From Bacteroidota bacterium (GTDB lineage: Bacteria > Bacteroidota > Ignavibacteria > Ignavibacteriales > Ignavibacteriaceae), in contig JAKAKL010000087.1 of assembly GCA_021824565.1 (NCBI GenBank), forward strand, positions 1-42,020: a DNA stretch of 42,020 nt, given 5' to 3'. The translations under genes and the position numbers were made by a program. A model generated the notes under the pieces. It was not told where the DNA came from, did not search any database, and saw only the letters and a program-made list of their open reading frames with translations. Below, in pieces: positions 1,572 through 41,991 of the stretch. The number at the start of each line of letters is the position of its first letter. Within the stretch, counting starts at the first letter, position 1.

Positions 1572-3164
1572 ATGCCTAAGAAAAACAACACTCCAAACGA
1601 TGAACCTTTAGAAAAAAAACTTTGGGGCGCAGCCGATAAACTCCGCAAGAATATGGACGCTGCAGAATACAAACACGTTGTATCGGGTCTTATATTCTTA
1701 AAATACATTTCCGATGCACACGAAGAACTTTATCAGAAATTAATTGAACAAAAAAGCGAAGGCGCCGACCCGGAAGACAAAAACGAATACACCGCAGAAA
1801 AAGTTTTCTATGTCCCTCCCTCAGCACGTTGGAAATGGATACAAGGCAGAGCATCACTTCCGACTATTGGCAAAGATGTCGATGATGCCATGGACGCTAT
1901 CGAAAAAGATAATCCTTCCTTAAAAGGCGTTCTTCCAAAAGTGTACGCACAAGAAAAATTAGATAAAGCAACTGTAGGCGGTTTAATCAATTTAATCGGA
2001 ACTGCTGCGCTTGGCACTAAAGAAGCTCAAAGCAAAGATGTTCTCGGCAAAGTTTATGAATATTTTCTCGGTCAATTTGCCCTTGCAGAAGGAAGAAAAG
2101 GCGGACAGTTCTATACACCGTCAAGTGTTGTAAGATTATTAGTTGAAATGCTCGAGCCTTACGAAGGAAGAGTATTCGATCCATGTTGCGGCAGCGGCGG
2201 CATGTTTGTTCAAAGCGAAAAATTTATTAAAGCTCACACCGATCATTATAAAAAGAAAAATGGAAATGGTTTATCATTCAATCCTTTAGACCGCATTTCT
2301 ATCTATGGACAAGAAAGCAATCAAACAACCTGGCGTTTGGCAAAGATGAATCTTTCAATTCGCGGTATTGACAGCACTAACGTTAAATGGAATAATGAAG
2401 GAAGCTTTCTAAACGATGCCCATAAAGATCTGAAAGCAGATTATGTCCTAGCTAATCCGCCGTTCAATGACAGCGACTGGTCCGGTGAGCTATTAAAAAA
2501 TGATGCACGCTGGAAAATCTTAGGTGAAAATTTAATTCCTCCATCCGGTAACGCAAACTATGCCTGGATTATGCATTTCCTTTATCATCTTGCGCCAACC
2601 GGTCAAGCCGGATTTGTTCTCTCCAAAGGTTCGCTTACTACACAGACAAATACTGAAGGAGAAATAAGAAAGACACTAATTGAAAAAGGATTGGTTGACT
2701 GCATAGTAAATCTTCCAACTAAATTATTTCTCAACACACAAATACCCGCTTGCCTTTGGTTCCTGTCGCGCAATAAATCCAACGGTGGCTTTAGAGACAG
2801 AAATAATGAAATCCTTTTTATTGATGCAAGAAACCTTGGATATTTGGTAAACCGCAGAAACCGTGATCTTAGCGAAGAAGATATAAATAAAATTTCCAGC
2901 ACATATCACCAATGGAGGGGCAAGGAAGGCGGCTATAAAGATGTTGCCGGTTTCTGTAAATCCGCAGCCTTAGATGAAGTTAGGAAACTTAATTATGTTC
3001 TGACTCCCGGTAGATATGTTGGCTTACCCGATGATGAAGATGATTTTAATTTCGTTGAACGGTTTACTTCATTAAAGGCAGAATTAGAAAAACAGTTGGC
3101 TGAAGAACAACAACTTAATGAAGCTATAATTACAAATTTGAATAAAATAATTCTTAAAAAGTAA
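1572..3164 (+). CDS. hsdM: type I restriction-modification methyltransferase subunit HsdM
   Basis: This is the N6-adenine methyltransferase subunit of a type I restriction-modification system. It works as an M2S complex with HsdS and transfers methyl from S-adenosylmethionine to adenine. The 530-aa product has the N-terminal helical HsdM domain (about 10-150), the SAM-binding motif I DPCCGSGG beginning at D203 and the catalytic NPPF at 295-298, with the length usual for the family. The ATG at 1572 follows a purine-rich aggggg with long spacing. It is the first gene of a same-strand cluster with the ORF6N gene, hsdS and an Mrr-type nuclease. No hsdR is visible. The only oddity is the palindrome-filled gap after its stop. 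Confidence 0.97.
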
Positions 3165-3167
3165 TTA

Positions 3168-3236
3168 TTTGTGCAAGCGCCGCTTGCACAAACTATGCAT
3201 AATATCATAAATGTTATCCGGTCGCAATTTGCGACC
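3168..3236. repeat. two perfect palindromes between hsdM and the ORF6N gene
   Basis: TTTGTGCAAGCG and CGCTTGCACAAA (3168-3192) are 12-bp arms around one base. GGTCGCAA and TTGCGACC (3220-3236) are 8-bp arms around one base. They fill most of the 97-base gap and could act as hairpins or protein sites. Their form fits dispersed repeats rather than a unique operator. Confidence 0.6.
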
Positions 3237-3261
3237 TCAGAAAAATAAACTGAATTAATAA

Positions 3262-4167
3262 ATGGAAATACACAAAAACAAATTAGTAGTTTACGACTCA
3301 TCCACCATCCAACGGAAAATTTATACTATTCGAAATGTTCAAGTAATGTTGGATAGAGATTTAGCAGAGTTGTACCAAGTCAAGGCTATTAGGTTAAGAG
3401 AGCAAGTTAAAAGAAATTCAAAAAGATTCCCTCCCGATTTCATGTTTCAGCTAACTAATGATGAGGTAGATTTCATGGTATCGCAAAATGCGATACCATC
3501 AAAGAAACATCTCGGCGGGTATTTGCCTTATGTGTTTACAGAGCAGGGCGTCGCTAACTTAGCTAGTGTGCTCAACAGTGATCGAGCAATTGAAGTAAAT
3601 ATACAAATTATGCGTGCCTTCGTTGTAATGCGTAAGTTTATTATAAATAACGCTCAACTGTTTCAGCGTATTGATAATGTCGAAAGAAGACAGCTTGAAC
3701 ATGAAATTAAAACTGATAAAAAATTCAATGAAGTCTTTGATGCTCTGCAAAGTAAAGAATTAGATCCTAAGCAAGGAATCTTTTACGACGGACAAATCTT
3801 TGACGCTTATAAATTTGTATCCGGACTTATCCGCAAAGCGGAAAAATCTATCCTTCTGATTGATAACTACATTGATGAAACCGTTCTCTCTTTATTTACC
3901 AAACGTAAGCATAATGTTGCTGTTACAATTTTCACTAAAGAAATTTCCAAACCCTTATCTCTCGATATAACCAAATTTAATTCGCAGTACCAGCCGGTTG
4001 AGGTAAAAATATTTAAGAACTCCCATGATAGATTTATCATTATTGATAACAAAGATGTCTATCACTTCGGCGCTTCTCTTAAAGACCTTGGCAAGAAATG
4101 GTTCGCCTTCTCAAAATTTGATAAAAGCGCAATTGAACTATTACAAAAGCTTGATGAGAAAAATTAA
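3262..4167 (+). CDS. ORF6N-domain protein with degenerate PLD-like C-terminus
   Basis: A 301-aa protein encoded inside a type I restriction locus. Residues about 13-115 form an ORF6N-type DNA-binding domain (RNVQVMLDRDLAELYQV, then LPYVFTEQGVANLASVL). The C-terminal part (about 165-290) ends in a phospholipase-D-like motif, H255-D-R-F-I-I-I-D262, followed by YHFGASLKDLGKKWFAFS. Canonical PLD nucleases have HxK(x4)D, so the lysine is replaced by arginine. Such genes often sit between hsdM and hsdS in Bacteroidota, and their role is not established. A short palindrome (ggtatcgca/tgcgatacc, about 3477-3498) is embedded in frame in the first domain. It could be a regulator or an accessory nuclease of the system. 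Confidence 0.85.
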   Translation: MEIHKNKLVVYDSSTIQRKIYTIRNVQVMLDRDLAELYQVKAIRLREQVKRNSKRFPPDFMFQLTNDEVDFMVSQNAIPSKKHLGGYLPYVFTEQGVANLASVLNSDRAIEVNIQIMRAFVVMRKFIINNAQLFQRIDNVERRQLEHEIKTDKKFNEVFDALQSKELDPKQGIFYDGQIFDAYKFVSGLIRKAEKSILLIDNYIDETVLSLFTKRKHNVAVTIFTKEISKPLSLDITKFNSQYQPVEVKIFKNSHDRFIIIDNKDVYHFGASLKDLGKKWFAFSKFDKSAIELLQKLDEKN

Positions 4168-4201
4168 TGAGTGAGTGGAAAGAAAATAAATGTCTGAACT
4201 G

Positions 4202-4258
4202 TGATTCTTCTGATTTTAGGATTACAATGATTAACAAAGAGAAAAATCAGAGGAATCA
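4202..4258 (+). promoter_or_regulatory. long hairpin covering the hsdS ribosome binding site
   Basis: TGATTCTTCTGATTTT (4202-4217) pairs with AAAATCAGAGGAATCA (4243-4258), 15 of 16 bases, with a 25-base loop. The 3' arm contains the purine-rich GAGGAA ribosome binding site and ends directly before the hsdS ATG at 4259. Folding would hide the site and could limit HsdS synthesis. The element also looks like a known type of dispersed repeat, so regulation is inference. Confidence 0.5.
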
Positions 4259-5326
4259 ATGAATCAAAAAAATCATAATTCAGGCAATGAGTGGAAAAAA
4301 TATAAATGGGGAGATTTAGCAACTCTTGAATATGGAAAGGGTTTAGGGAATTACTTACGCGAAGATGGGAAATATCCTGTTTATGGAACTAATGGTAGAA
4401 TTGGGACCACAGATAATTTATTATGCCCATTTCCCAGTATAGTAGTTGGAAGAAAAGGCGCTTACCGCGGAATTCATTATTCCAAAACACCATTCTATGT
4501 TATTGACACTGCATTTTTCTTAAATCCAAAAATTCCCGATTTGGATATTACTTTTGCTTACTATCAATTGCTTACTGTTGATATAAACTATATGGATAGT
4601 GGTTCTGCAATTCCCTCAACAAGTAGAGAAGATTTTTATGACATCGATATTTTTCTTCCACCAATAAATGAGCAACGCTCCATCGCCTCAATCCTTTCCA
4701 GCTTAGACGACAAAATAGATTTACTCCACCGCCAAAACAAAACCTTAGAGCAACTCGCAGAAACACTTTTTAGGCAGTGGTTTGTGGAGGAAGCGGATGA
4801 GAATTGGGTAAAAGGATTACTTGAAGATTTTGTTAACATTGCTTATGGTAAGAATCTCCCTACCAGCAAATTATTAAAGCGTGGTTATCCCGTTTTTGGA
4901 GGTAATGGACGAATAGGATTTTATGATAAATTTTTATATGAATTGCCTCAGGTTTTGGTTTCATGTAGAGGTGAAGCTTCTGGTGTAGTTAATATTTCAC
5001 TTCCTAAATCATTTGTTACTAATAATTCTTTGGTACTTGAAATCAAGGATAATAATATCACTTTTGAATTCCTTAAATATTTTTCGCTTTTTACAGATTT
5101 CAAAGTTTATATAACTGGTTCAGCTCAACCTCAAATAACCATTGAGACTCTTAAACAAGCTGATTTTTTCTTACCGCCTTTAGACTTAATAAATAGATTT
5201 TCTAATTTAGTCGGAGATTATGAAATAAAAAGATCAAAAAATAAAATTCAAATTCAAGTCCTCACTCAACTTCGGGATACACTTTTACCAAAGTTGATAA
5301 GTGGAGAAGTGAGAGTAAAAATTTAA
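4259..5326 (+). CDS. hsdS: type I restriction-modification specificity subunit HsdS
   Basis: This is the target-recognition subunit that gives HsdM its sequence specificity. The 355 aa are built as two similar halves. The first has a target recognition domain (about 8-140, with YPVYGTNGRIG) and a conserved helical spacer (about 143-182, EQRSIASILSSLDDKIDLL). The second has a recognition domain (about 185-315, with YPVFGGNGRIG) and a C-terminal helix (about 316-350). The repeated GxNGRIG pattern in both halves shows the internal duplication. The length is at the short end for full two-domain HsdS. The start is set by GAGGAATCA upstream of ATG 4259. Confidence 0.95.
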   Translation: MNQKNHNSGNEWKKYKWGDLATLEYGKGLGNYLREDGKYPVYGTNGRIGTTDNLLCPFPSIVVGRKGAYRGIHYSKTPFYVIDTAFFLNPKIPDLDITFAYYQLLTVDINYMDSGSAIPSTSREDFYDIDIFLPPINEQRSIASILSSLDDKIDLLHRQNKTLEQLAETLFRQWFVEEADENWVKGLLEDFVNIAYGKNLPTSKLLKRGYPVFGGNGRIGFYDKFLYELPQVLVSCRGEASGVVNISLPKSFVTNNSLVLEIKDNNITFEFLKYFSLFTDFKVYITGSAQPQITIETLKQADFFLPPLDLINRFSNLVGDYEIKRSKNKIQIQVLTQLRDTLLPKLISGEVRVKI

Positions 5327-5336
5327 AGGAAACTAT

Positions 5337-6311
5337 ATGCCAGAATTATATTGTGTACGTGCTGAATTTGGTAAATATACTGATCTTTTTCTGAAAGGAA
5401 ATTATATTGCAATTGGCTGGATGTCGCATACTGATTTAACCAATATTAAAAGCAGAGACGAATTATACCCACTTTACAAAAAAGAACATCCAACTGATAC
5501 AAGTAATGTAGTGATTGGTCAACAGGTTGGGCAGATAGCAAGATTTCTTTTAGAAATTAAAGCTGGTGATTATGTAATTACACCGAGTAGCGATACCGAA
5601 TATATTTATTTTGGTATTGTTGATAACGACCCATCTTATTTTTTCGCTGATGAATTAGACGGTTGTCCATATTTTCACCGTAGAAAAGTTAAATGGCATA
5701 AAACCCCAATTCAAAGGAGCTCATTCTCTGTCCCATTTCAAAATACTATTCGCTCTTCATTGACAGTTTTTTCTATATCGCATAAAAAGAATTTTTTCGA
5801 AACAATCGGAAGAAAAGATCTTATATCTGTTAGTGAAATCCATAGTGAATATGATTATTACACAACAGTGCTCAACAGAATTTTGGAATTAGATGATAAA
5901 GAATTTGAAATACTCATTACTCATTTACTAACTGCTTTGGGTTTTGAAGGCTCAGAACATCACGGCAAGGTCGGAGATGGAGGTGTAGATGCGACTGGAG
6001 AACTCAATGTATCCAACATGGCAAAAGTTAAGGTTTATGTTCAGGCTAAACGATATAAGTTAGGTACCAAGATTAATTCCAATACTGTAAAAGCACTAAG
6101 ACAAAGCATACCCTTTGGTGGGCAAGGTGCTTTTATTGCCACTTGTGATTTTCAAAGTGCAGCAAAAGAAGTTGCATTAGAGCAAGGGTTTCCTCGTATT
6201 GGTTTAATAAATGGAAATCAATTAGTAGATATTTTAGTTGAACATTGGGAGGATATCCCAATTGAATTTAAAGAAAATCTTAATTTAAAATTAGGTCTTG
6301 TCATTGCATAG
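5337..6311 (+). CDS. Mrr-type restriction endonuclease with PUA/EVE-like N-terminus
   Basis: A 324-aa putative DNA endonuclease starting 10 bases after hsdS, so probably co-transcribed with it. The C-terminal part (about 185-310) has the Mrr_cat signature: FEILITHLLTALGFEG, then D218 in GVDATG and Q236-A-K238, the D...QxK catalytic core of the PD-(D/E)xK fold. The N-terminal part (about 1-150) has a beta-rich pattern with GDYVITPSSD, YFGIVD and RRKVKWH, resembling PUA/EVE-type modified-base readers. That assignment is tentative. It has no helicase or translocase motifs, unlike HsdR. It may be the nuclease of this locus or an independent modification-dependent enzyme. Confidence 0.85.
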   Translation: MPELYCVRAEFGKYTDLFLKGNYIAIGWMSHTDLTNIKSRDELYPLYKKEHPTDTSNVVIGQQVGQIARFLLEIKAGDYVITPSSDTEYIYFGIVDNDPSYFFADELDGCPYFHRRKVKWHKTPIQRSSFSVPFQNTIRSSLTVFSISHKKNFFETIGRKDLISVSEIHSEYDYYTTVLNRILELDDKEFEILITHLLTALGFEGSEHHGKVGDGGVDATGELNVSNMAKVKVYVQAKRYKLGTKINSNTVKALRQSIPFGGQGAFIATCDFQSAAKEVALEQGFPRIGLINGNQLVDILVEHWEDIPIEFKENLNLKLGLVIA

Positions 6312-6491
6312 TATATTTCAAGTATAAAAAATTCAAATTCGCACAACGAAAAGCTGCTGGATAAAAATTTGCAAAAGTTGTAAGTGTAAAAGTGAAACTA
6401 AATAGGACAACCGGCGCAAAATAAACAATTACTAAAACTGCAACAAATATAAAATTATTTTTCCCATTGAGTTGTCGTGTTTATAAGCATA

Positions 6492-6533
6492 TTCCCAAGC
6501 TGAATGTCGCGGGTTCGAACCCCGTCGCTCGCT
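6492..6533 (+). tRNA. 3' half of a tRNA-Gly(CCC), attachment-site scar
   Basis: The sequence from the anticodon loop TTCCCAA (6492-6498) onward reads as a normal tRNA: anticodon-stem 3' arm GCTGA, variable loop ATGTC, T-stem GCGGG / CCCGT around TTCGAAC (6514-6520), acceptor strand CGCTCGC and discriminator T (6533). The 5' half is missing: the bases before the loop do not pair with GCTGA, and no acceptor partner lies within 100 bases upstream. This is what the distal end of an element integrated in a tRNA gene looks like. It should be non-functional. Confidence 0.75.
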
Positions 6534-6540
6534 CTTGTTA

Positions 6541-6571
6541 AAATGCCGAAAATTTAGGGTTTTCGGCATTT
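6541..6571 (+). terminator. hairpin after the tRNA fragment
   Basis: AAATGCCGAAAA (6541-6552) pairs perfectly with TTTTCGGCATTT (6560-6571) around a 7-base loop, followed by t-rich sequence. It is likely the original terminator of the tRNA transcript. The rest of the gap 6312-6661 holds the tRNA fragment and no gene that I can support. Confidence 0.7.
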
Positions 6572-6661
6572 CTGTTTTAAATGATTTTGTTGATTTGCTC
6601 TATTCCGTCCTATTCAGTCGCATTTTATATTACAATTCATATTACAAATTATTTTTCTTTA

Positions 6662-22990: not shown

Positions 22991-23012
22991 CGCTTTGCGC
23001 TATACAATCATC

Positions 23013-24521
23013 ATGGCAGCAACAATAAAAAAACTCGACGAACAATTTGAAGACTTCCTAAACAAAATAGTCTTCGAACAAACCGAAACGGACTTAACCC
23101 CGGAGCTTCGCGCCAAGCGCCGCGCCCTCGCCGATGCCGATGATTTCCAATTCTGCAAAATTTATTTTCCGCAAATCTTTGATGACGAATGGAACGGCGT
23201 TCACCGTCATATTAAATCTTTGCGCCGCGGTATTCATTACGTTTCCGGATCGCGTAAGTTCGGTAAGACTGCCTTTGGATTAATTTCAAAATTAGTTAAG
23301 CCGATTTGTGAAGGCGGCGTTGGACTTGTCGGACTCGGTATGCGTACTCAAGATGATTCAAAGGAAAGAGGCGAAGCTTTAACTAGACTTATCCAGCGTA
23401 ACTCTAAATTATGTTATGATTACGATATCCAATTCCAGCAGGATAAAAAAGGTTATTGGATTATTAACAACATGACCTTCGTCAGCGTCGGCGCTCAAGA
23501 AGGCTTGCGTAATTTTGCCGATGATAATTTTAAGCGATTCAAAATATTAATCCTCGACGATTTATTTAACCGCATTACTGTCCGCTCCGTAGTCGATAAC
23601 GAAAGAGTTTATCAGTTCATATCTTCAGAAGCGGAAGGTCAGCTTGATGATGACGGCTTGATGATTGTTTTCTTCAACATCATAATTAACGATTCTCCCG
23701 GAGATAGAATTTCAAAAGAACATCCGGAGCGGTCATTCAATTTTCCAGCGCTTAATGAAAATGAAGAAACCAACTGGCCCGAGTCGAAAAAGTACACAAC
23801 GGAATATCTTCACAAAAAGCGCGATGATATGAACCTTGAAATCTGGATGGGCGATTGGATGAATCAGCCGGTCCTTATCGGAGAGATCTTCGATCCGAAT
23901 TGGATTCGCGGCATCAACATCAACAATATAAAAATTGTCACTGCGCTCAGCGCAATTGATCCAAGCTTTGGTAAAAGCCCGGCGGCATGTTATAAAGGCA
24001 TAGTTACTCTCGGCATTACTGATCGTGAACAGCAAGTTATACTCGATATTTATTTGCGTAAAGAAGATTACGAGCAAGTTTTTGATTATCTCGATAACAT
24101 AAGATCAATAACACCATATTGGAAAGTTTTGCTTTTTGAAAACGATTTTTCTCAGTGGGAAATAGCCGCGCCATATTATAAGCTTTGGGCAGAGAAACGT
24201 GATAAGGTTTTGCCGATTTATCAAATTACAACTCAACAATTAAAGACGGAAAATTACGGCAGCGATAAAGAATCGCGAATAATGAATTTGGTTTTCCCGC
24301 ATCAAACCGGACAGCTTCTTTATAACGAAGCCATCATGAACAATGCGGATTTCAAATTATACAAACAGCAGCTGCTTAGTTTCGGCAAAAGTAAAGAAAA
24401 GCTTGACGGTCCCGATGCTGCATCAACTGCATTCATATTAATTAAAAGATATAAAGAGCACGGCACATTCAAATCATCAAAACTTCGCCGAGCTAAAATG
24501 AATTTATTCAGAAAAGTTTAA
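23013..24521 (+). CDS. terminase large subunit
   Basis: The ATPase/nuclease motor that packages DNA, Mu gp28-like, about 502 aa from ATG 23013. A TTG at 22995 is an alternative start. The ATPase domain has Walker A GSRKFGKT (about residues 74-81) and Walker B FKILILDD. The C-terminal RNase H-like nuclease domain begins near ALSAIDPSFGKSPA with its first acidic residue, followed by LLFENDFSQ and the last acidic motif DGPDAAST. Mu-like phages package by headful from integrated DNA with this enzyme. The gene follows the small subunit by 22 bases. Confidence 0.93.
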   Translation: MAATIKKLDEQFEDFLNKIVFEQTETDLTPELRAKRRALADADDFQFCKIYFPQIFDDEWNGVHRHIKSLRRGIHYVSGSRKFGKTAFGLISKLVKPICEGGVGLVGLGMRTQDDSKERGEALTRLIQRNSKLCYDYDIQFQQDKKGYWIINNMTFVSVGAQEGLRNFADDNFKRFKILILDDLFNRITVRSVVDNERVYQFISSEAEGQLDDDGLMIVFFNIIINDSPGDRISKEHPERSFNFPALNENEETNWPESKKYTTEYLHKKRDDMNLEIWMGDWMNQPVLIGEIFDPNWIRGININNIKIVTALSAIDPSFGKSPAACYKGIVTLGITDREQQVILDIYLRKEDYEQVFDYLDNIRSITPYWKVLLFENDFSQWEIAAPYYKLWAEKRDKVLPIYQITTQQLKTENYGSDKESRIMNLVFPHQTGQLLYNEAIMNNADFKLYKQQLLSFGKSKEKLDGPDAASTAFILIKRYKEHGTFKSSKLRRAKMNLFRKV

Positions 24522-32693: not shown

Positions 32694-33650
32694 TCAGACA
32701 GCCTCCCCAAACTCAACTTTCCTTCCTGAACTCTTCTGCTGAAGCTTCTCCAAAGCTTTCCTCACAATTTCCGACTGCGGGTGATCCGGATTATTCAAAA
32801 CATCATGAACGGTTGTCCTGCCGATACCGGCTTCCTCAGCAATTTCTTTAAGCGAAAAATCCATTGCTTCCTTCAGCTCCCGGATAGTCGGCTTTATTAC
32901 TTCGCCGTCCAGCACTTTCTTTCCGGCTCTGCGTGCTTCTTCCATCTTCAAACCAACATAGTACACTATCTGTAAAGGTGATTTACAAATAGCTGCTATC
33001 CGTTTTCTCGCCTCGTCTGTAATTGCATCTCTAAAAACCGATTTGATATATTTAATGCGTTGGTCAATCTTCATCCAGCCTTCGCCTTCGTTAAGCTGTA
33101 AGGTTTGACATCTCCAAAGCACTTCCTGTCTGCTTTCTATCTTCGCCAGTAGTTCAGGATGCCCGGTAATAATAACAGAGAACAATGGGCCGATTCCGTT
33201 GAAAGTAGCTTCGCGTAATTCCTTTAATGCTCTAAATGTATTTGCATGTATGCGGTGTCCTTCGTTTATCAAAACGGAAATAAACTTTTTCTCATTCACA
33301 TGCTTAGCGCCTACGATTCTTGTAAGCTGTCGGCTTCTGGCTTCAAGATCTCTTTTCGGCGATTCATTCGAAAGGTCATATATCATCGCGTTAATGATTG
33401 AGGAAATGTCCAGCTTCTCTTTATAATAATTTTGAACATTAACAAAAATTGTATCTTTCTGTTTTTCTTCAATCGCCTGTGTATGCAGAACATTCTTACC
33501 CATTCCTTTATCGCCGATAACCACCAACATTTGATTTTGTTCAATCGCGTCAACAATATCATTCTTAAAATTTTCGCAAGTGTTATCCCAAAAGAAACCT
33601 TGCTTTTCCAAACCGAATTGTCTTAATAGACTTTTTCTAATTTCTATCAT
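32694..33650 (-). CDS. MuB-like transposition ATPase
   Basis: An AAA+ ATPase that delivers target DNA to the transposase. 318 aa from ATG 33650, chosen because aaggaaggt lies 5 bases upstream and the longer frame overlaps the 53-aa ORF. The AAA domain has a P-loop GDKGMGKN (residues 46-53) with Asn in place of Ser/Thr and a Walker B-like SVLINEGH, and sensor-type ITGHPE follows. The C-terminal part carries a helix-turn-helix (EIAEEAGIGRTTVHDVL), while MuB itself has its HTH at the N-terminus. It lies downstream of MuA. Confidence 0.9.
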   Translation of the reverse strand: MIEIRKSLLRQFGLEKQGFFWDNTCENFKNDIVDAIEQNQMLVVIGDKGMGKNVLHTQAIEEKQKDTIFVNVQNYYKEKLDISSIINAMIYDLSNESPKRDLEARSRQLTRIVGAKHVNEKKFISVLINEGHRIHANTFRALKELREATFNGIGPLFSVIITGHPELLAKIESRQEVLWRCQTLQLNEGEGWMKIDQRIKYIKSVFRDAITDEARKRIAAICKSPLQIVYYVGLKMEEARRAGKKVLDGEVIKPTIRELKEAMDFSLKEIAEEAGIGRTTVHDVLNNPDHPQSEIVRKALEKLQQKSSGRKVEFGEAV

Positions 33651-33663
33651 TTGGCACCTTCCT

Positions 33664-33825
33664 TTAGTTGTCATCCCGGACTTGATCCGGGATCTGTTTT
33701 AATTCATTTATTAATTCTTTCCAGTTCCACTGACTATGAACATGCAGCAGAACAGCCGCCAGCATCAACACCACTTCCGGCGGCTGCTTCCTTAATTCAA
33801 TTACTATCTCATCAATCAATTCCAT
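33664..33825 (-). CDS. 53-aa hypothetical protein
   Basis: A small ORF between the DUF3164 gene and MuB with a hydrophobic centre (VVLMLAAVLLHVHS) and a C-terminus that comes from the gtcatcccg palindrome (33670-33694). The MuB ATG at 33650 follows its stop by 14 bases. No family recognised. Confidence 0.4.
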   Translation of the reverse strand: MELIDEIVIELRKQPPEVVLMLAAVLLHVHSQWNWKELINELKQIPDQVRDDN

Positions 33826-34785: not shown

Positions 34786-36360
34786 TTAAGCTTCCGCTGC
34801 CTTGTTGAATATATAGCTCAGCAAATCATCTATATATTTTTTCTTTCTTCCTTCTTCAGTAGTAATCATTTCATCAAACACATCCGCATAGCTCTCATAT
34901 GTTCCCTCGCCTCTATCCTCAAGCCTCTTGCCAATGTACACCTTCGCTTCATATTCGCTTTCAAAACATTCCTCAGCAATAGCTTCATCAAACTTCGTAA
35001 CCGGCTCAAACTTCTTAACCCGCGGCTTCAAATACTTTATTTTGCTGACTTCTGACTTCTGACTTCTCACTTCTTCTTTCACTTCCGTCTCCACCGCTTG
35101 CCTGTAAGTAGCCTTCTCGCGGTGTTCATAATCGCCAAGCTCCACATAGCCTTTTGTCGCCTTCAAAATAACCGGTTTAGAATATTCCTCAATCAACTCA
35201 CCGACAACCTCACCGTGCAGATTCTTATAAGCCCTAACCCGCTTGCCGATCCAGTTGGCTGGACATTGATACGGCTCATTATTAATCGAGATTAAACACG
35301 TATTCAAAACGGTGCGCTCCCACGGCTTGGCGATTACCTCTCTCAGATCGACTTCAATTTCCCTCGGCGGATTTGCGGCAATGCTTGTTAGGTAAGCATG
35401 CCCGCGCGTGTAGCTCTTTAACGGATGCTGCCATTCCAAAAGCTTAACCATAAAATCAAAAAGCAGTTCATTATATTCTTGAAGATAAATTGTTTTGCCT
35501 TCGCCCATCTTAATTGCCGTAGGCAGTTCAAAGCGCTGCCATAGCATCTTCCAGCCGCTTTCTCTTTTTTGTATGCCGCGTTTTTTGTATGGCTGGGAAA
35601 GTTCACTTTTAATTTCTAATTTTTCTAAGAGCGCTTTAACGGATGCGTCTTTTATAAAGCTTCCGTTATCTGTCTTTAAAGTTTCGGGCAAATATTTTAA
35701 CGGCAGTTCATCTTCTTCCCGGGTGTAAGCGTAATTCAAAAATTCAATTCCAAGTAAAACAGATTCGCCGGTGGCTGCATAAGCTTTTGCGGCGCTTACA
35801 CGGCTGTGCGCGTCTGTAATGCCTACAATCCATGTTCTAAATCTGTGGTCATCCATTTTGTAATAAAGAGATTTGCCGGAAACTTTTAGAAGATAATCTG
35901 ATTTCGAATTGTCGTATTTATAAATCTGAAAATATTTGGACCTTGTAAAATCAAGTTGATGCTGCTGGTTTGCGTAGCCCGCTTCCACTCTTACTATCGG
36001 ATCGCGCTGCCTGTAGCCCATCTCATTCAATCTTCGGTTCACCGTAGATTGCTTCAGTAATTCCGCGCCTGGTAAATTCTTCTCTTGAGCAATCTCGATG
36101 CAGATATCGGTTGCAAGCTCTCTCTCATCCAGCCCGATAAGCATGCCGCGTGTTTTTATTTTAGCAATTTCATGTATCAGATTTTCCGGGATCTTCTTTT
36201 CGCGTATCACCGTTTTTTTCGGTCCAACTTTTCTCCTAATCTCCCGGTAAATTGTATGCTTGCTTATATTATAAATGCTCGCATACTGTTCGATTAATTT
36301 CCCCCGTGCACCTTTCGGTGCGGCACTCAATTCAGCGTTTATCTTCATAAAATCTATCAT
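34786..36360 (-). CDS. MuA-like DDE transposase
   Basis: The transposase that cuts and joins the phage ends, 524 aa. An N-terminal helix-turn-helix (about 20-45, QYASIYNISKHTIYREIRR) is followed by a second HTH region, then the rve catalytic core: D137 in HQLDFTRS, D231 in LKTDNGSF and E267 in IQKRES, with exactly 35 residues between D231 and E267 (DD35E). A Mu-C-like beta domain follows (GKRVRAYKNLHGEVVGELIE). The in-frame repeat RSQKSEVSK (35045-35075) lies in the linker before the C-terminal region. MuB and GemA-like genes are on either side. Confidence 0.95.
   Translation of the reverse strand: MIDFMKINAELSAAPKGARGKLIEQYASIYNISKHTIYREIRRKVGPKKTVIREKKIPENLIHEIAKIKTRGMLIGLDERELATDICIEIAQEKNLPGAELLKQSTVNRRLNEMGYRQRDPIVRVEAGYANQQHQLDFTRSKYFQIYKYDNSKSDYLLKVSGKSLYYKMDDHRFRTWIVGITDAHSRVSAAKAYAATGESVLLGIEFLNYAYTREEDELPLKYLPETLKTDNGSFIKDASVKALLEKLEIKSELSQPYKKRGIQKRESGWKMLWQRFELPTAIKMGEGKTIYLQEYNELLFDFMVKLLEWQHPLKSYTRGHAYLTSIAANPPREIEVDLREVIAKPWERTVLNTCLISINNEPYQCPANWIGKRVRAYKNLHGEVVGELIEEYSKPVILKATKGYVELGDYEHREKATYRQAVETEVKEEVRSQKSEVSKIKYLKPRVKKFEPVTKFDEAIAEECFESEYEAKVYIGKRLEDRGEGTYESYADVFDEMITTEEGRKKKYIDDLLSYIFNKAAEA
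35045..35075 (-). repeat. in-frame SQKSEVS-type repeat in MuA
   Basis: On the coding strand this is three tcagaagtcagaagt-like units encoding EVRSQKSEVSK within MuA. The same unit occurs in the endolysin and gemA in the same frame. Confidence 0.8.
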
Positions 36361-41799: not shown

Positions 41800-41925
41800 A
41801 TGAGCAAAGAATTAAAATTAAGAGTCTTTATTAGTTATAACCACTTGGACGATCACTATGCCAAAGAATTTATTAAACACATTGCCCCATTGAAAAGTAA
41901 ACAACTACCGGCTGTAAGCCGGTAG
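41800..41925 (+). pseudogene. truncated TIR-domain gene start
   Basis: From ATG 41800 (ribosome binding site aggag) the frame reads MSKELKLRVFISYNHLDDHY, then AKEFIKHIAPLKS, the first beta strand and helix of a TIR domain (VFISYxHxDxxxxxEFxKHL). At K32 the sequence enters the 99-bp repeat (41893), which gives QLPAVSR and a stop. TIR domains in bacteria often act as NAD-cleaving effectors of anti-phage defence. Only the first quarter is present, so it is not functional as it stands, or the contig is joined wrongly. Confidence 0.65.
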
Positions 41926-41991
41926 CTTTAGGTTCGTCTAAAGCCGACTTCGGCTAATCACTTATCCGAAAATCTTCGTCTTCTTTCTCAA
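41893..41991. repeat. 99-bp inverted repeat, right copy
   Basis: Exact reverse complement of bases 1-99. It truncates the TIR gene just as the other copy truncates the PDZ ORF. After it the last 29 bases continue with an open frame (SENLRLLSQHPDFLYIAL overlapping the repeat end), which may be part of another gene. The exact length of 99 equals a common assembler k-mer value, so a graph artefact is possible. Confidence 0.85.

Follow-up and report, generated by a model that had tools for sequence, protein, structure and literature searches.

The locus raises the question of what an Mrr-type nuclease gene is doing directly behind the methyltransferase genes of a type I restriction-modification operon in which hsdR is missing: does the nuclease stand in for HsdR, or was hsdR lost from beside an independent enzyme? 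It lies in a stretch of 42,020 nucleotides (hereafter the window), which is the entire contig C1 of the assembly and starts at its base 1. Four open genes follow one another on the forward strand. The first, hsdM (1572-3164; 530 aa), encodes a type I DNA adenine methyltransferase subunit with DPCCGSGG and NPPF motifs, assigned from Pfam (N6_Mtase, 359 bits, E = 3.8e-107; HsdM_N, 98 bits), from its identity to the HsdM of contig C81 and from a tree. It is followed by a gene for an ORF6N-domain protein (3262-4167; 301 aa; Pfam ORF6N, 110 bits), lying as cargo between hsdM and hsdS, by hsdS itself (4259-5326; 355 aa), whose product has two target-recognition domains (Pfam Methylase_S, 112 bits, in two stretches), and, after a gap of 10 bases, by the Mrr-type nuclease gene (5337-6311; 324 aa; Pfam Mrr_cat, 67 bits), predicted to encode a modification-dependent nuclease. 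This arrangement had been described in the original prediction, and the open reading frames and Pfam matches agree with it.

Downstream of the nuclease gene, a spacer (6312-6491) occupies the position where relatives have hsdR, and no hsdR remnant was recognised in it. It ends at a 43-base 3' fragment of tRNA-Gly(CCC) (6492-6534, forward strand), a probable attachment-site scar that closes the hsd-bearing element. The scar had also been predicted, and all 43 of its 43 bases are identical to the 3' part of an intact tRNA-Gly(CCC) gene on contig C139. A terminator scan placed a terminator-like hairpin 3' of the scar (6541-6571, forward strand). Upstream of hsdM, a hairpin at 1424-1450 followed by TTTAT was read from the sequence; it is not listed by the scan, which has a loop limit of 8, its loop being 9 by our own reading. 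The reported absence of HsdR between the upstream terminator and the tRNA scar was borne out over the whole contig, where tblastn with 23 HsdR proteins found none (best E = 0.013). Searches for a remnant restricted to the stretch after the nuclease gene (6312-6660) and to that before hsdM (1-1571) gave best E values of 0.022 and 0.18, respectively, and the former match, 34 columns on the opposite strand, was taken as chance. Because HsdR is absent from the operon, we class the locus as a type I operon lacking hsdR, not as a complete system: it has HsdM and an HsdS with both target-recognition domains and the conserved regions, it has no HsdR of its own, and one family-matched HsdR is encoded elsewhere in the genome, on contig C81.

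We give a probability of roughly 0.7 to the reading that the locus is a truncated type I operon joined to an independent nuclease, with predicted activities for every part of it. The ancestral order would have been hsdM, cargo, hsdS, cargo and hsdR, the last gene having been lost where the putative island ends at the tRNA-Gly attachment scar. HsdM and HsdS, whose domains are intact, would then form a methyltransferase that places m6A at a second target. The Mrr-type gene would be embedded cargo encoding a free-standing type IV enzyme, as its modelled architecture and sequence suggest, and the ORF6N gene would be a second cargo gene.

The relatives of HsdM point to such a loss. Among the 96 HsdM matches listed, 94 lie outside this genome, and 40 of these were fetched for context, representing nearly all the higher-identity ones (ten in that range were passed over). 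hsdR is present in 28 of the 30 relatives with at least 7.8 kb downstream, a count that takes in hsdRs that are split (L145 and L163) or truncated where the stretch ends (L164); the 10 with less than 7.8 kb were left out, three of which (L171, L175 and L177) do show hsdR. Here and at the nuclease loci below, genes took their names from blastp matches to a small panel drawn from this and three further genomes, by which very distant HsdRs can be missed. The exceptions were L144, which retains an hsdR remnant, and L182, in which none was recognised, so that absence of an intact hsdR is rare but not unique. In a quick HsdM tree, with SH-aLRT as the only support, the window HsdM falls in a clade of 8 (support 98) with hsdR-bearing operons, that of C81 included, and pairs with genome G082 (support 86), in which hsdR is present.

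Contig C81 carries the assembly's only hsdR of the same family, in an operon that also encodes an HsdM and an HsdS; this operon was outside the view of the original prediction. No second copy or remnant of the family HsdR was found in the assembly at E<=1, and a second hsdR hidden by assembly collapse was rejected, since C81 is unbroken through hsdR and one family copy was found. The two HsdMs are identical at 449 of 530 residues (85%), the 15% overall divergence rising to 22-30% at residues 51-150 and 501-530. Between the two HsdS proteins, identity is 96% at residues 151-175, as against 8-32% in the target-domain stretches (per-segment comparison), and the stretch that leads into hsdS (4165-4262, forward strand, overlapping its first codon) has its sole near full-length match in the assembly before the C81 hsdS (81% over 97 bases). 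Restriction at the second target may use this HsdR in trans, slightly more probably than not. Contamination of the assembly is estimated at 3.6%, so C1 and C81 could derive from different cells; the tRNA stretch common to C1 and C139 counters this only weakly, since tRNA genes are conserved. The portions of the reviews consulted gave no identity limit for the exchange of type I subunits.

The trans step is the sole point at which the best-surviving alternative departs from the reading just given. There, HsdMS would be an orphan methyltransferase whose motif is methylated and goes unrestricted because the C81 HsdR does not accept the window's HsdMS, the nuclease acting alone. We regard this as a possible, though unlikely, outcome: it agrees with an operon without hsdR and with an HsdM that diverges from its C81 counterpart most at residues 101-150 and 501-530, but C81 has closely similar HsdS conserved regions and a closely similar stretch before hsdS, which is what membership of a single exchange family would predict. 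That the locus is a remnant without any activity seems improbable. Operons of this kind do decay, as seen in a related genome (G148:C28, locus L144), where a decayed copy carries a 151-aa hsdR remnant. In the window, by contrast, none of the four reading frames is interrupted, each product matches its family over nearly its full length, and residues D214, D218 and K238 of the nuclease are invariant in 47 of 47 aligned sequences.

The original prediction had left room for an hsdR-less variant, with the Mrr enzyme in the place of HsdR and its cutting governed by the HsdMS mark, and the tight 10-base gap after hsdS and the contig without hsdR are what such a variant would show. The neighbours of nuclease relatives speak against it. 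A scan with two peptide patterns, by which relatives lacking the patterns are missed, matched 117 stretches, 50 of which encode a relative (in L106 the match spans residues 1-163 only). In 23 of these 50 loci an hsdR-like ORF of at least 300 aa lies on the same strand no more than 2.2 kb downstream of the nuclease, starting within 30 bases of its end, or overlapping it, in 12 of the 23; hsdR stands elsewhere in 6 more, giving 29 of 50 with hsdR. An HsdM of the window's family (at least 48% identity) occurs in 21 of the 50 loci, every one of them (21/21) with hsdR. Similarly tight hsdS-nuclease spacing, with hsdR directly behind, is seen in L060, L069, L075, L080 and L083, and hsdR also adjoins the nuclease gene in two more distant cases, G115 (37% identity) and G254 (36%). 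In L078 (Ignavibacteria GWF2_33_9), all four window genes are present, with hsdR in addition.

No hsdR of at least 300 aa was seen in the other 21 of the 50 loci, including L109, whose nuclease ORF is absent by the ORF caller. In seven of them the downstream sequence is no longer than about 2 kb (L064, L070, L077, L086, L088, L093 and L107), the contig of L077 ending in a 225-aa piece of hsdR; the other 14 have more. Five hsdR-less loci match proteins of the G157 locus (L063, L071, L074, L089 and L096); the match in L074 is 7 kb away, and G157/L096 alone among the five was checked with PADLOC. Nine have other neighbours (L062, L081, L082, L085, L101, L102, L105, L108 and L109), with distant HsdM-like genes in three (L081, L082 and L105). 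Some nuclease relatives, such as that of the G157 locus, are found in defence loci of other kinds that lack hsdR, a finding of the kind the original prediction had said would count against its hsdR-less variant. Plasmid and phage searches with the nuclease matched 31 and 3 records, respectively, all below 60% identity, and a scan of 296 genomes of the phylum gave matches in 59, mostly over one domain only.

The architecture of the nuclease bears on the same point. Its AF2 model (mean pLDDT 85, pTM 0.53) has two parts. Residues 172-314 matched MspJI (Z 13.0, rmsd 2.8, 140 aligned) and also AspBHI, both of which are found by the sequence profile as well; whole-chain Foldseek comparison with MspJI gave TM-scores of 0.34-0.36 only (rmsd about 22), so the structural match holds domain by domain. 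Residues 1-160, in which W28 and W120 are conserved, matched the EVE protein PH1033 (Z 10.7, rmsd 3.0, 117 aligned), YTH domains (YTHDC2: Z 10.6, rmsd 3.0, 119 aligned) and residues 1-156 of VcaM4I (Z 9.9, rmsd 4.1, 128 aligned). E. coli Mrr proper has an N-terminal Mrr_N winged-helix domain. No Pfam match to Mrr_N was found in the nuclease at E<=0.01, residues 1-160 being modelled as an EVE/YTH-like fold instead, by which it differs from Mrr proper. The nuclease is a candidate member of the EVE-PD(D/E)XK class, having a nuclease domain with conserved catalytic residues and, in the model, an EVE/YTH/PUA-like reader fold. Pfam EVE gave no match in the sequence at E<=0.01; many defence EVE domains are described, in the part of the source consulted, as needing sensitive methods such as HHpred for their detection (PMC7641849).

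The layout is that predicted, from model and sequence, for a self-contained modification-dependent (type IV) enzyme, in which the N-terminal EVE/YTH-like domain would read a modified base and the PD-(D/E)XK domain would cut. With a predicted reader of its own, with two modelled domains in 324 aa, too few residues to hold an HsdR-type helicase as well, with hsdR beside relatives in more than half the loci and with a relative in the G157 locus, the nuclease is most improbable as a substitute for HsdR. The other option of the original prediction, loss of hsdR beside an independent modification-dependent nuclease, is favoured by gene order and architecture, its activity being predicted. The nuclease is a common passenger and probably attacks modified phage DNA on its own. 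There is only a very slight chance that its reader recognises m6A, the mark of the neighbouring HsdMS, in which event hsdM-hsdS-mrr would be self-contained without need of HsdR, and methylase and nuclease would be mutually tuned, for example by cutting only foreign or misplaced m6A.

The ORF6N protein has near full-length homologues following hsdM in L145, L146, L147 and L078. Two of these operons, L146 and L078, include hsdR; it is split in two in L145 and was not seen within 5.9 kb downstream in L147. As to the PLD-like character named in the original prediction, five relatives share a conserved H-D-R-F-x-I-I-D stretch; the structure model, from a 5-row alignment, is too poor for use (mean pLDDT 43), and the profile had no match among PDB sequences at E<=1. 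The protein matches PADLOC profile PDC-S05 (PDLC04869; 410 bits, residues 4-299), and the nuclease matches PDC-S02 (PDLC04806; 516 bits) over its full length (residues 1-323 of 324). PDC-S02 is named as a candidate defence system in the part of the source consulted (PMC11719660). No difference was seen between either profile and the window protein, and the profiles assign no function.

The locus is a new example of already known kinds. Sau1 of S. aureus is described as a system in which two distant hsdM-hsdS pairs on genomic islands share a single hsdR (PMC3753647), and here too one HsdR is possibly common to two HsdMS pairs. In Sau1 hsdR is separate from either pair, whereas here it is inside one complete operon, on C81; the Sau1 M subunits are described, in the excerpt consulted, as 99% identical between lineages (PMC3753647), whereas the two HsdMs here are 85% identical and the sharing is putative. 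TgvAB on VPI-2 of Vibrio cholerae is likewise a defence that depends on modification and sits inside a type I cluster, but it is a two-protein, GmrSD-related system, unlike the single reader and nuclease protein of the window, where hsdR is missing. EVE-PD(D/E)XK fusions, described as putative type IV enzymes (PMC7641849), have the same reader and nuclease layout; MspJI and AspBHI resemble the nuclease half, the whole-chain similarity to MspJI being low, and PH1033 and residues 1-156 of VcaM4I the reader half. The RRDM island of EPEC carries DarTG2 between hsdS and hsdR, a slot described there as a potential recombination hotspot (PMC12255303); like the window it has defence cargo in that slot, but the cargo is another one and hsdR is present. 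In the portion of the literature searched, no paper on this nuclease in type I operons was recognised.

What appears to be an hsdR-less type I locus can mislead: an hsdR that matches it is present in a sister operon, and the nuclease gene next to hsdS is a travelling one that occupies the position between hsdS and hsdR in type I operons of several phyla. The locus offers a specific case of one HsdR possibly serving two HsdMS operons, together with a reader and nuclease protein that is well modelled and whose target base could be identified.

ORF calls, Pfam and a search of the whole of contig C1 for HsdR proteins confirmed the originally predicted order of hsdM, an ORF6N gene, hsdS and an Mrr-type nuclease gene (1572-6311, + strand), with 10 bases between hsdS and the nuclease and no hsdR on this contig, which is the entire window and one of 148 in the 4.59-Mb assembly. 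The nuclease stop is followed by 180 bases with no recognised trace of hsdR and then by a 43-base fragment of a tRNA-Gly(CCC) 3' end (6492-6534, + strand), identified by its match to the intact copy on contig C139. A 12-pair hairpin, listed on the - strand, lies between hsdM and the ORF6N gene (3167-3193).

Elements that integrate into tRNA genes usually lie on the left of the + strand 3' tRNA fragment that bounds them, which puts the element bounded here on the flank that carries the hsd genes. The fragment is followed, on its right, by a Mu-like transposable prophage (6600-42000, judged by eye from its ORFs), with transposase-like (34786-36360), ATPase-like (32694-33674) and terminase-like (22995-24521) ORFs, also named by eye. 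Given the scar orientation and the prophage on the other side, the hsd genes appear to occupy one end of an island; hsdR, the last gene in most relatives, is missing there. On C139 a tRNA-Val follows the intact tRNA-Gly(CCC) by 86 bases (1451-1688 of the stretch L019), after which the contig stops; no left junction of the island was located. Nucleotides 1-99 of the window are identical, inverted, to 41893-41991, which may be an artefact of assembly or a genuine inverted repeat.

With the window HsdM as query, 82 of 395 genomes from the phylum gave a match at E<=1e-100, and 40 of the 94 matches listed for genomes other than the window's were analysed with their surroundings. Thirty of these extend 7.8 kb or more downstream, and hsdR is present in 28 (split in two of them, cut by the stretch end in one); the exceptions are L144, with a 151-aa hsdR remnant, and L182 of genome G106, where none was recognised and which is possibly another hsdR-less type I operon. 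Downstream of the latter HsdM lies a 767-aa gene, ATPase-like by eye. The window-type nuclease was seen in none of the 40 stretches, the hsdS-hsdR slot holding other genes. A quick tree joins the window HsdM to that of genome G082, which has hsdR (support for the pair 86), within an eight-member clade (support 98); the four further members C81 (a contig of the window's assembly), L145, L146 and L148 have hsdR (split in L145), L144 keeps the remnant, and L147 has too little DNA to judge. L144, which is decayed, and L145, whose hsdR is in two ORFs, are two copies of the operon in one related genome (G148). On the simplest view, the lack of hsdR in the window operon is a derived state and the nuclease arrived there afterwards.

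The C81 operon consists of hsdM, a DUF1016-type gene, hsdS, a transposase-like gene (153 aa; both names by eye) and hsdR (1074 aa). Its HsdM is 85% identical to that of the window, and its HsdR is the only family member in the assembly at E<=1, two other HsdRs matching at 27-28%. Four genes of HsdR size came up in a SWI2_SNF2 family search, this one included; those on C123, C3 and C65 adjoin HsdMs only 25-35% identical to the window HsdM, together with HsdS genes so named by eye. Between the window and C81 HsdS proteins, identity is 96% at residues 151-175, 60-68% at the C-terminus and 8-32% in target-domain stretches, as is usual for specificity alleles of one family. Within the assembly, the only near full-length match to the stretch preceding the window hsdS precedes the C81 hsdS (81%). 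The estimated contamination of the assembly is 3.6%, and we infer that C1 and C81 come from one cell. Another type I operon of the assembly, on C3, has a different Mrr_cat protein (337 aa with an N-terminal nuclease domain; L014 8412-9425) in its hsdS-hsdR interval, a second case of cargo in this slot.

Relatives of the nuclease were sought with an alignment of four homologues in one genome per species (84,980 species), which yielded 50 loci, by record title from Bacteroidetes, Proteobacteria, Chloroflexi, Nitrospirae, an archaeon and others. In 23 of the 50, the nuclease is followed on its own strand, within 2.2 kb, by an hsdR-like ORF of at least 300 aa, which in 12 of these begins within 30 bases of the nuclease end or overlaps it; a further 6 have hsdR at another place in the locus. 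The remaining 21, without such an hsdR, comprise 7 with about 2 kb or less downstream, 9 with other neighbours, and 5 matching proteins of the G157 locus, which is that of L096 (100% protein identity); PADLOC, which covered only G157/L096 of these five, reported DpdE/DrmD-like, DrmMI-like and DruE-like genes. L077 terminates in an hsdR fragment of 225 aa. All 21 nuclease loci with the window's HsdM family have hsdR. In one Ignavibacteria genome (L078), hsdM (76% to the window), ORF6N (54%), hsdS, nuclease (67%) and hsdR (70% to C81) share one strand, with further genes interspersed. The headline reading, in which the Mrr enzyme cuts in place of HsdR, was not borne out, and its alternative, a lost hsdR and an independent nuclease, fits.

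The AlphaFold2 model of the nuclease (47 rows) has a mean pLDDT of 85 and a pTM of 0.53, so that each domain is reliably modelled but not the way they pack together. In the model, residues 172-314 resemble the nuclease domains of MspJI (Z 13.0), a modification-dependent enzyme, and of AspBHI (Z 12.5), so described in its structure title; a sequence profile also matches both (E 4e-06 and 0.0012, respectively). Residues 1-160 match the EVE protein PH1033 (Z 10.7), VcaM4I (Z 9.9) and YTH domains (Z about 9.4-10.6). Over the whole chain, Foldseek alignments are poor (TM 0.34-0.36 for MspJI), and the likeness is therefore domain by domain. The predicted architecture is a reader plus a nuclease domain, and the modelled fold does not specify which base would be read. 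EVE-PD(D/E)XK fusions have been described as putative type IV enzymes (PMC7641849).

Gene content, order, conservation, the predicted architecture of the nuclease and the one HsdR of the family in the assembly are what the analysis shows, and the locus is a type I operon that lacks hsdR, has a same-family hsdR elsewhere and embeds a type IV candidate. Most probably the window HsdMS writes m6A at its own site, and the C81 HsdR may join it in trans to restrict unmethylated DNA. One HsdR would then give the cell two type I specificities, as it does in S. aureus (PMC3753647). The nuclease would cover the opposite threat, DNA with modified bases, a role that the embedded TgvAB has in V. cholerae (PMC11411939). 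Both parts are already-known things, of which this locus is a new instance.
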